Origin: Blautia sp. | GTDB lineage: Bacteria > Bacillota > Clostridia > Lachnospirales > Lachnospiraceae | Assembly (NCBI GenBank): GCA_017475035.1 | Contig: JAFVGK010000117.1 | Span: forward strand, 85,229 to 149,228 | Direction of reading: 5' to 3' | Length of the DNA stretch: 64,000 bases | Shown: in pieces, positions 41,448 to 45,502 of the stretch | How positions within the stretch are numbered: the first letter of the stretch is position 1 | Layout: each line of letters opens with the position of its first letter | Made by a program: the position numbers and the translations under genes | The notes under the pieces: model-generated | Told to the model about the DNA's origin: nothing | Databases searched by the model: none | The model's input: the letters and a program-made list of their open reading frames with translations, nothing else

Positions 41448-41744
41448 ATTTCCTCGCACCTGCCCTTTCTTTCATGATCCTCGCTGTTTTTCTTTGATTA
41501 TAAAATATCCGGGCAAAGTTGGCAAGGGGAGAGCAGACCTGTGATATTGGTTCAGGACTTCTTATAACAACTCAGCGCTCACCTTCATGGCTATCACCAG
41601 CTCCCGGACAATGAACCGGGCTGTATCATGACCGACTGATTCTGTTACCGGCATCAAGCCAAAAACGGTATCCGTAAACAATGATCAAACACGCAAAGCT
41701 TTGTTTTAGGAGAAAATTCCGTACGTTGATTCAATCTCTTCGGA

Positions 41745-41797
41745 AGACTGTATTTGCAGCTTCGGCAATTGGGCTGCCGAAGCTGCAAATACAGTCT
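41745..41797. repeat. R3 perfect hairpin repeat
   Basis: A perfect 23-base stem (41745-41767 against 41775-41797) with the loop ATTGGGC has no T-tail on either strand. Its centre CTTCGGCAATTGGGCTGCC is shared with the copy at 58628-58666. The rest of the gap 41448-41744 shows nothing recognisable. Confidence 0.75.
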
Positions 41798-42493: not shown

Positions 42494-42626
42494 AGGATCT
42501 GTACATAAATAACCTTTACATCCGGCACGTCTAAATCCGCTCAGACTGCGTTGTTGCCAGACGCCGCAGCCTTGCCTGGGCGAATTTATCCTGCACCATC
42601 TGCATAGGTTATTTTGCACAGCTCCT
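42494..42626. repeat. R2 MITE-like element, complete copy
   Basis: This 133-bp element has imperfect terminal inverted repeats: AGGATCTGTACATAAATAAC at the left and the complement of AGGAGCTGTGCAAAATAACC at the right. The interior is GC-rich with short hairpins. Partial or collapsed copies are at 985-1034, about 28969-28990 and 52668-52700. Confidence 0.7.
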
Positions 42627-42692
42627 AAATCCGCAAAGAGATTCCAGGTTGACGCAGATGTTTCTGCCATCAGCCTTTTCTCTGCTTTATAG

Positions 42693-42786
42693 TATGCGCA
42701 CGAATTTACAGCGGAATCATGCCGCTTGCAGCGGCGTAAATTCGGCGCAGTAAACGAATCAAAATGCAAGCATTTTGTTTGTTTCC
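42693..42786. repeat. R1 two-hairpin repeat, copy 2
   Basis: It matches copy 1 closely through the first hairpin. The second hairpin is partly decayed (the right arm reads TTTGTTTGTTTCC). It ends just before the binding site of the OhrR-type gene. Confidence 0.85.
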
Positions 42787-42810
42787 TATATCTTTATTGA
42801 GGAATATTCC

Positions 42811-43266
42811 ATGACATCCGATCCGTCCTATTCAACTTCCGCAGCCCCCGATCCCCTGTCTTTAGACAGCCAGCTATGCTTCCCTCTGTACGCTGCCGCA
42901 AGGAAGGTCGTTGCTTTATATACACCCTATTTTAAGCCCTTAGGGCTAACCTATACACAATATATCGCTTTGATGGCGCTTTGGCAGGAGCACACCATCA
43001 GTGTAAAAGATCTCGGACAAAAGCTCTGCCTGGACAGTGGCACCCTCACCCCACTGTTGAAAAAAATGGAAGCTGCAGGCTATGTCACCAGAAAACGCAG
43101 TCAGGAGGATGAACGCCTTGTCATGATAACCATTACCGGACAAGGCATGTCCCTGAAAGAGAGAGTTGCAGATATCCCAGCCAAAATCGGAAGCTGCATC
43201 CCCCTCGAAACCGACGAAGCGATACAGCTTTATACTTTATTATATAAACTGCTGGCAAACATATGA
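42811..43266 (+). CDS. ohrR: OhrR-type MarR-family peroxide-sensing regulator
   Basis: The 151-residue winged-helix regulator carries the OhrR sensor cysteine in SQLCFPLYAAARKVV near its N-terminus, followed by YTQYIALMALWQEH and the DNA-reading part TLTPLLKKMEAAGYVTRKRSQEDERLV. OhrR repressors release DNA when this cysteine is oxidised by organic peroxides. The ATG at 42811 follows GAGGAATATTCC; an in-frame GTG-like extension from 42775 runs into the R1 repeat and is rejected. The likely target is the glutathione peroxidase gene upstream, whose promoter has an inverted repeat. Confidence 0.82.
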   Translation: MTSDPSYSTSAAPDPLSLDSQLCFPLYAAARKVVALYTPYFKPLGLTYTQYIALMALWQEHTISVKDLGQKLCLDSGTLTPLLKKMEAAGYVTRKRSQEDERLVMITITGQGMSLKERVADIPAKIGSCIPLETDEAIQLYTLLYKLLANI

Positions 43267-43362: not shown

Positions 43363-43403
43363 GCCGGGACATCTCACAAAAAAGATGCCCCGGCACTTTT
43401 TTC
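43363..43403 (+). terminator. Terminator after the OhrR-type gene
   Basis: GCCGGG and CCCGGC close a stem that includes ATCT/AGAT, with the tail CTTTTTTC. It sits about 100 bases after the stop codon. Confidence 0.75.
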
Positions 43404-43444
43404 TTCACTATTACCTTCACTCTCATATCCCCATACACTAACCA

Positions 43445-43680
43445 GCTCGGCTCATTACCCTCAAACAAGCGCACGGATCGATGTCACAATGAGCGACGCA
43501 TTCGGAAAATAATTGACGAGACTGAAACCGATGGGAGATTTAAGGTCTGAGGTGGCTCCGGTGCCTTTTCCGGAGACATTTCAGGCCTTTAGTCTCCCAC
43601 GGGAGATGGCTCGGCTGTTATTTTTCGGCTGAGCTAATGTGACATCGATCCGGGAGCCTGTGCAAGCCTTCTAGCCGAGC
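43445..43680 (+). ncRNA. Candidate structured RNA/element, tandem copy 1 (236 bp)
   Basis: The outer pair GCTCGGCT (43445-43452) and AGCCGAGC (43673-43680) closes the unit. Next GGATCGATGTCACA pairs with TGTGACATCGATCC. Inside are a helix of about 18 bp from GGGAGA (43533) to TCTCCC (43598) with CTCCGG/CCGGAG at its tip, and a 9-bp hairpin GCTCGGCTG/CGGCTGAGC. Strand is assigned only because the next operon runs to the right. It could be a structured RNA or a palindromic DNA repeat. Confidence 0.55.
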
Positions 43681-43728
43681 GTCAGGATATTGTTAAAATA
43701 TTCTACCCCACACCGCCTACACGAACCA

Positions 43729-43964
43729 GCTCGGCTCACTACTTTGAAACAGGCGCACGGATCGATGTCACAATGAGCGACGCATTCGGAAAATAATTGA
43801 CGAGACTGAAACCGATGGGAGACTTAAGGTCTGAGGTGGCTCCGGTGCCTTTTCCGGAGACATTTCAGACCTTTAGTCTCCCACGGGAGATGGCTCGGCT
43901 GTTATTTTTCGGCTGAGCTAATGTGACATCGATCCGGGAGCCTGCGCAAGCCTTCAAGCCGAGC
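43729..43964 (+). ncRNA. Candidate structured RNA/element, tandem copy 2 (236 bp)
   Basis: It has exactly the length of copy 1 and starts 284 bases later. By eye it differs at nine positions. Two lie inside the long inner helix and switch G-T pairs of copy 1 to G-C (43823) and A-T (43869), so pairing is preserved. A third (43945) does the same in the GCGCA/TGCGC pair. It ends 32 bases before the SPFH promoter. Confidence 0.55.
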
Positions 43965-43996
43965 GTCAAATATCTAACACAAAAGCAGAAAAAGCC

Positions 43997-44025
43997 TTGA
44001 CAAAATAATATCATTATGATATCAT
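43997..44025 (+). promoter_or_regulatory. Promoter with palindromic operator for SPFH-RHH operon
   Basis: TTGACA (43997-44002) and TATCAT (44020-44025) are 17 bases apart. The spacer contains a perfect inverted repeat, ATATCAT-T-ATGATAT (44008-44022), running into the -10 box. The small RHH protein of this operon is a natural candidate binder. Confidence 0.65.
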
Positions 44026-44087: not shown

Positions 44088-45092
44088 ATGAAAGACGGCA
44101 TTATCGTAAATGAAAAGATTCTAAGCAACAAGAAAAACGGCATGCCCATGCTGCTGCTGTTTATCGGCCTCTACCTAGCAGCCACTGCCCTGTGCGTATT
44201 ATCCTCAATTTTCCTGATCATACCGATCATGGTAATATCAATCATTTACCTTTCCCTCGGCTGGATCCCCTTACTCGGCCTGAAGGTCTTAGGTCCGCAG
44301 GAAGCCCTCGTCCTGACCCTGTTCGGCGATTACATCGGCACCTTAAAAGAAGCAGGCTTCTATTATGTCCATCCCTTCTGCGTCAGTGTAAATCCCGCAG
44401 CCAAAACCTACCTTAATCAAAGCGGTGATGTGGATGCCAGCCGCAAAGAGCGGGCAGACAGCTCCACCCAGACCTACGGCAAAAAGATTTCCCTCAAGGT
44501 CATGACCCTCAACAATAACCGCCAGAAGATCAATGACTGTCTGGGAAATCCTGTCGAGATCGGCATTGCGGTCATGTGGCGTGTTACTGACACGGCAAAA
44601 GCCGTATTCCATGTAGATAATTATAAAGAATACTTATCCCTGCAGTGTGACAGTGCATTGCGCAACATTGTCAGGATTTATCCCTATGATATTGCACCGA
44701 ATGTCGACACCACCGGCGACGGCATTGCGGACGAGGGAAGCCTGAGAGGATCCAGCGATGTCGTCGCGGAGCGGATTCGCAACGAGATCCAAAGCAAAGT
44801 CGCCGAAGCCGGCCTGGAGATTCTCGAAGCCAGGATCACCTATCTTGCCTACGCTCCGGAGATCGCCGCAGTGATGCTGCAGCGCCAGCAGGCTTCCGCG
44901 ATTATCGATGCAAGAAAGATGATCGTAGACGGCGCAGTCGGCATGGTAGAGATGGCACTGGACCGGTTAAATCAAAACCACGTGGTAGAATTGGATGACG
45001 AGCGGAAAGCTGCCATGGTTTCGAACCTCCTCGTCGTGCTCTGCGGCAACCGTGACGCTCAGCCCATCGTGAATTCAGGAAGTATCTACTGA
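44088..45092 (+). CDS. SPFH (band 7) domain membrane protein
   Basis: The 334-residue protein has two closely spaced N-terminal membrane segments (about residues 20-62), followed by an SPFH/prohibitin domain: [28 protein letters not shown], a [22 protein letters not shown]-like strand region, and the long helix [27 protein letters not shown]. It should form oligomers at the membrane. The ATG at 44088 follows GGAGGAAAACCC; an upstream frame from 44016 covers the promoter and is rejected. The RHH gene overlaps its stop codon, and both are driven by a palindrome-containing promoter. Confidence 0.9.
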
Positions 45093-45292
45093 TGGCCGAA
45101 CCAAAGAAAAAACAGGTTCCGCTCCGCTTATCAGAAACCTTGTATAACCAGATCGCTGCCTGGGCAGAGGATGATTTCCGCTCCGTCAACGGACAGATTG
45201 AATATTTATTGACAGAATGTGTCCGCCAGAGAAAGAAAAACGGTTCTCCCCGCCCGGAGCAGCTCGATATCCCGCCCTCACTGGATGTTTAA
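45092..45292 (+). CDS. Arc-type ribbon-helix-helix protein
   Basis: This 66-residue protein starts [20 protein letters not shown], where VPLRLSE is the DNA-reading strand of Arc/CopG proteins, followed by two helices (LYNQIAAWAEDDF and SVNGQIEYLLTECVRQRKK). The tail is basic then proline-rich. Its ATG overlaps the SPFH stop as TGATG, so both are co-translated. It probably binds as a dimer of dimers to the palindrome in the operon promoter and represses it; that is inference. Pairs of SPFH and RHH genes recur in clostridia. Confidence 0.85.
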   Translation: MAEPKKKQVPLRLSETLYNQIAAWAEDDFRSVNGQIEYLLTECVRQRKKNGSPRPEQLDIPPSLDV

Positions 45293-45341
45293 ACATTTCT
45301 TCAGCCTGCCGGCTGGACGAACCGCCGCTTTTATGTTATAG

Positions 45342-45435
45342 TATGCGCACGGATTTACTGCGGAATCATGCCGCTTGCAGCGGCGTAAATTCGGCGCAGT
45401 AAACGAATCAAAACGCAGGCATTTTATTCGTTTAC
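45342..45435. repeat. R1 two-hairpin repeat, copy 3
   Basis: It matches copy 1 almost base for base, with both hairpins intact (GTAAACGAAT and ATTCGTTTAC). It begins TATGCGCACGGATTT. Confidence 0.85.
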
Positions 45436-45502
45436 ATATCATAAAAGAAAGAGTGAAAGACATTCAGAGCTTGCCGGGCAAAAATCACTGATTTATTAAG
45501 AA

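Follow-up and report, generated by a model that had tools for sequence, protein, structure and literature searches.

A dispersed non-coding hairpin family in Blautia whose fold is kept by compensatory change and which may spread by copying from its 3′ end

Dispersed palindromes are common in bacteria, and for most of them, to our knowledge, the mode of movement is not established. SINEs are non-coding, structured and dispersed, and their truncated copies keep the 3′ end and lose the 5′ end, which is the general pattern of target-primed reverse transcription. Among bacterial repeats, the bcr repeats of the B. cereus group are described as clade-restricted, intergenic sequences of 100-400 bp, present in tens of copies per genome, with a common predicted fold, features of mobile elements and no known enzyme (PMC6542083, PMC2267715); their mobility has been linked to TTTAT repeats (PMC6542083). 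ERIC, Correia/NEMIS, RUP and YPAL are described as small and non-coding, with long predicted stem-loop transcripts and some size variants; of the repeats in that list, the majority duplicate their target and many have TA ends (PMC2229807). CGTC-tagged REPs are described as hairpins with an unpaired CGTC at one end and no dedicated transposase; they measure 20-40 bp with 8-9 bp stems, carry a CCA-like tail and lie mostly head-to-head, with few head-to-tail (PMC3733652).

Here we describe a hairpin element of Blautia sp., present as two copies in a stretch of 64,000 nucleotides (the window; contig JAFVGK010000117.1, positions 85,229 to 149,228). The family to which they belong is clade-restricted, multicopy, intergenic and structured. 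In this it resembles, by description, bcr1 and the other bcr repeats; the host group differs, as the sequence probably does, and the TTTAT repeats of the bcr account are absent from the flank tables of the Blautia element. One-sided truncation and compensation across species are reported here for the Blautia element. ERIC and its companions are similar in size, lack of coding content, predicted stem-loop and size variants, but the Blautia element ends in CAG and CGTC and no target duplication was detected. The unpaired CGTC recalls the CGTC-tagged REPs; the Blautia element, however, is about 240 bp or more, outside the 20-40 bp palindrome and 8-9 bp stem of those repeats, and has head-to-tail arrays and a different tail. 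The SINE trait of 5′ truncation with a kept 3′ end was found in the window's own genome (G000), with one contrary copy in a second genome (G087). Unlike SINEs, the element has a bacterial host, no target duplication, no 3′-sharing partner that we could find, and a putative transcript. We class it as a new family, set apart from bcr repeats, MITE-like repeats and CGTC-REPs by their descriptions, and the open-access literature searched yielded no description of such a repeat in Blautia. By analogy, it appears to behave as bcr1 and ERIC do, both of them structured repeats confined to a clade.

Both window copies lie on the + strand. Copy 1 (43443..43684), delimited by its ends, genome search and folding, runs from CAG through a long hairpin to CGTCA; copy 2 (43727..43968), delimited by its ends and genome search, follows head to tail. 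The spacer between them (43685..43726, + strand) combines the weakly conserved, RGTTATC-like 3′ flank of copy 1 with the 5′ flank of copy 2. We re-found the tandem 236-bp units of a sequence-only reading, 284 bp apart, at 43445-43680 and 43729-43964, and verified its nine differences between the copies, all of which fall inside the hairpin. Copy 1 (43445-43681) folded at -122.7 kcal/mol (z = -10.75), a value equalled by none of 200 shuffles. The opposite strand also folded well (z = -7.82), and good folding on both strands is expected for any long palindrome. When the three differences said to keep pairing were checked in the MFE fold of each copy, two did so, 43539/43823 turning U-G into C-G and 43585/43869 turning G-U into A-U, while the third did not: U at 43661 pairs with A in copy 1 and C at 43945 is unpaired in copy 2. 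The window holds no Rfam family at gathering score; the elements were unmatched at gathering scores, a further Rfam run gave two tRNAs only, and the low-threshold list contained microRNA models only (best E 0.026). A terminator-like hairpin flanked on each side by a T run (43363..43394, no strand assigned) does sit just upstream of copy 1, between it and a MarR gene. Elsewhere in the window, the profile weakly matched positions 41548-41608 on the - strand with its 3′ end of the element (E 0.005), and a third copy may have decayed there.

A search of G000 (200 contigs totalling 5.08 Mb; completeness 93.6%, contamination 5.0%) with the element gave at least 93 matching pieces, so the window pair is not a locus-specific tandem. 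In this search 40 of the 58 first candidates were scored, and all counts are therefore lower bounds; the places were retrieved and searched with a profile. At least 65 units, in 45 clusters, reach the same 3′ end, and the suggestion of a large palindromic repeat family is thus borne out, in dispersed form. Full-length units number 26; another 19 retain the 5′ end but carry an internal deletion, and 20 are without the 5′ end, making 39 of the 65 broken. The full copies have a mean identity of 88% and measure about 232-237 bp between stem ends. The 3′ border is sharp, ending in AAGCCGAGCGTCA; beyond it, the 60 anchored ends used out of 67 show a weak RGTTATC consensus. In the unpaired CGTC at this end, C, G and T are each kept in 58-60 of 60 and the last C in 56 of 60; read by eye, the CGTC end is present in other subfamilies too. 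Copies lie between genes in all four orientations, with cluster counts of 15 (>E>), 11 (>E<), 9 (<E>) and 7 (<E<), three clusters being undetermined on the 5′ side and genes having been predicted with a simple ORF rule. Promoter-like sites around the 45 clusters pointed into the element from upstream in only 3 and away from it in 17; downstream, 21 pointed away and 7 pointed in, and inside copies there were 7 on the top strand and 1 on the bottom strand.

The sequence-only reading had proposed selection on structure, and covariation both within G000 and across species strongly agrees with this. Within G000, 16 of 76 consensus pairs were double-changed, against a shuffle mean of 3.1 that none of 500 shuffles raised to the observed value, and slid versions of the structure gave 1 to 4. 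Across species, 13 of 34 core pairs were double-changed (shuffle mean 7.1, reached by none of 500; slid versions again 1 to 4), and 99% of core-pair cells were paired in an alignment of 18 units, namely 12 of the 26 full G000 copies, five from G087 and one from G062. These figures count sequences and pairs, not events, and many of the double changes split G087 from the rest and may each be a single event; on a tree of the 26 copies we counted 17 double Watson-Crick changes. The CAG...CGTC ends and the inner motifs CGAGAC / GGCTCG and CTT / TTAG were kept while the helices were rewritten, and by eye the same is true of a second G087 subfamily; the G062 copy has the core, its outer ends being unrecognisable. 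The fold of the element is thus selected and not a chance palindrome. Scatter in the manner of mobile palindromes, which the earlier reading had counted against an RNA structure, is indeed what we observed, yet the covariation is significant. Correction between the two arms of a DNA palindrome is another conceivable source of compensatory changes, but it would be expected to erase conserved mismatches. A weak strand test gave only a hint of which strand folds: majority Watson-Crick pairs changed to G-U 23 times versus 12 times to A-C (p = 0.09), and the whole consensus structure, which favours G-U by construction, gave 28 versus 14 (p = 0.04).

Loss of the ends in G000 was one-sided, with no unit keeping the 5′ end only and 20 of 65 lacking it. 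By exact motifs, all 24 5′ ends lay close to a 3′ end that partnered them (two at 2-3 mismatches), whereas at least 10 of 41 3′ ends had no 5′ end (p = 0.01). Of the 20 truncation points, 18 fall at or past the apex (p = 0.0002 versus a uniform spread); by eye, two of the truncated units (L038 and L055) may retain a short stub of the 5′ end. Arrays were ordered in the same sense. Of the 18 arrays of at least two units, 16 open with a damaged unit, truncated in 10 arrays and internally deleted in 6, while the 20 later units comprise 15 full, 5 internally deleted and no truncated ones; the window pair belongs to the remaining two, which start with a full unit. Among the G087 places retrieved, at least one copy keeps the 5′ arm but lacks the 3′ arm; it is located beside a short REP-like hairpin and accompanied in that genome by two 5′-truncated copies, so the 5′-truncation rule is not absolute.

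One-sided truncation, ordered arrays and compensation across species together point to a folded strand that is copied starting at one end. We infer that the hairpin family is mobile, and we put forward, with confidence evenly divided for and against, that it is a non-coding dispersed family whose fold is kept by compensatory change and which spreads by copying of the folded strand from its CGTC-bearing 3′ end, probably by an enzyme supplied in trans. Such an enzyme would start at the 3′ end and melt the 3′ arm first; once past the apex it would run freely through the 5′ arm, so failures, and therefore breaks, are predicted in the 3′ arm. Repeated rounds of copying would give head-to-tail arrays. 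The template could be RNA, through reverse transcription as in SINEs, or single-stranded DNA, through an HUH-type enzyme; the break-point argument was made post hoc and fits both alike. A single family that combines cross-species compensation, one-sided truncation and ordered arrays makes the mode of movement testable, and an RNA intermediate, if real, would extend SINE-like parasitism to bacteria. That more specific proposal, a bacterial SINE in the form of a non-coding hairpin RNA which would exploit a reverse transcriptase in trans as a parasite and return to the chromosome from its 3′ end, would account for the 5′-truncated copies and for head-to-tail arrays with an incomplete first unit, but we hold it to be unlikely.

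A MITE-like DNA palindrome, mobilised by a transposase that works on both of its ends and later broken by slippage deletions at a long palindrome, would explain the paired ends, the small size, the absence of a gene inside and the scatter between genes. The apex is lost in the internal deletions, which is what slippage at a palindrome would produce, and by eye some of these deletions join short direct repeats such as GCTCGGCT. We nevertheless regard this account as doubtful, though a credible contender. No target duplication was seen in the 26 clusters whose first 5′ end is intact, the longest shared flank word averaging 5.8 versus 5.95 for mismatched flanks. Loss of ends ran 20 to 0 in one direction in G000, no larger element with both ends around a gene or transposase was found in this incomplete genome, and a plain palindrome has no need of internal mismatches and motifs conserved across species. 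The element thus departs from the definition of a two-ended MITE on both target duplication and end retention.

The same compensatory evolution and conserved inner motifs would suit a multi-copy structured non-coding RNA with a host function, spread by duplication, and the element may be an undescribed structured RNA with a putative transcript. The host-function account is nonetheless improbable in our judgement, given the patchy presence in 3 of 64 genomes of the genus, the 39 broken copies of 65, the placement in all four orientations to neighbouring genes and the inward-pointing promoter-like sites at only 3 of 45 clusters. Last, the sequence-only reading had offered a tandem regulatory leader for an operon made up of an SPFH / Band 7 gene (44088..45092, + strand) and a small ribbon-helix-helix-like gene (45092-45292), which is downstream of the element as a MarR-family regulator gene (42811..43266, + strand) is upstream, both outside it. 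Only the fold and the position upstream of the operon speak for this. Between 43250 and 44110 the + strand showed a single promoter-like site (43997..44025, TTGACA-17-TATCAT), which lies 3′ of both copies and outside the element. By eye a like site recurs directly upstream of SPFH in five relatives, one of them cut at a contig edge just upstream, and the genomes of these five gave no blastn match to the element. The other 44 clusters are scattered elsewhere in the genome, away from the SPFH operon. Promoter position and recurrence in relatives led us to reject an SPFH leader or riboswitch, an idea that now deserves next to no credence, and the SPFH neighbourhood is incidental. For readers of genomes this is a caution that a striking tandem structure beside an operon may not belong to it.

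Candidate enzymes were sought in the carriers. G000 encodes, unlinked to the element, a group II intron whose reverse transcriptase is uninterrupted and a second intron protein; at L066 (C163) a further group II intron, its reverse-transcriptase gene broken by a stop, directly follows a terminator-like hairpin. Two other reverse transcriptases, at L068 and L069 (C169 and C177) and possibly in prophages, have the look of DGR enzymes, a label that presumes their neighbours to be DGR variable proteins, which they resemble. When the element was compared by blastn with the five reverse-transcriptase loci of G000, matches were at chance level (best E 0.27). G000 also has a fragment of a Y1 transposase where a contig ends; by eye, this fragment and its hairpin look unrelated to the element. 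In G087 (assembly 79% complete) we found a Y1 fragment and no reverse transcriptase, and in G062 (87% complete) reverse transcriptases and no Y1, so that these incomplete assemblies revealed no enzyme family common to all three carriers. Nor did a common neighbour gene emerge as mobiliser, the widest family among 185 flanking ORFs spanning four loci. Targeting of terminators, as by group IIC introns, suggested itself by eye and was rejected: terminator-like sites occurred near the 5′ side in 11 of 45 clusters and near the 3′ side in 16 of 45 versus 59 of 505 random windows, so there is no strand-specific terminator target. Tandem repeats in the flanks were no commoner than in controls by these counts: none in 42 flanks at the 5′ side, 1 in 42 at the 3′ side and 9 in 419 controls.

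The element was absent from most relatives searched. No match was obtained by blastn in 60 other genomes, 36 of them of the genus (at most 12 candidates scored per genome). A covariance model built from the 26 full G000 copies (R1) found 3 of 294 genomes positive under stricter filters, with the best 9 candidates considered per listed genome, and a wider model (R2) found the same three among 64 genomes of the genus (best 42 candidates per genome); because filters were strict and only the best candidates were scored, weak relatives may be missed. The carriers are G000, G062, with one copy at one place, and G087, with two subfamilies. G087 corresponds to Blautia sp. isolate RGIG5651, a MAG from sheep duodenum, and in 84,980 species genomes a motif pattern covering all subfamilies hit this MAG only, on 10 contigs. 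An exact 26-base pattern of the G000 form had no hit in the same collection, which may omit G000. Phages, plasmids and viral contigs contained no match to the G000 element or to the family motif pattern, and nothing was found for one G087 copy in plasmids or for a different one in phages.

Several other repeats were observed along the way. Short TGAGTCAAGGAACCTGTCCCCCTGACTCA hairpins, which look like REP-type repeats, stand beside elements, many of them in G087 (L129, L130, L131, L133, L136-L138), with like hairpins near L022 and L037 of G000 and in L072. In this last locus, from G002, a 232-aa frame for a Y1-type transposase (E 3.5e-12) lies just upstream of SPFH, beside the short hairpin. 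In the window, positions 42494-42629 have relatives in loci L033, L034 (via L061), L040, L041 and L061, and 41721-41797 has one in L032, so G000 holds several dispersed repeat families. A dispersed repeat of about 105 bp (42687-42792 and 45336-45440, 92% identical) flanks the MarR-SPFH stretch on both sides, and like stretches occur in seven more loci (L031, L035, L042, L051, L052, L061 and L062).
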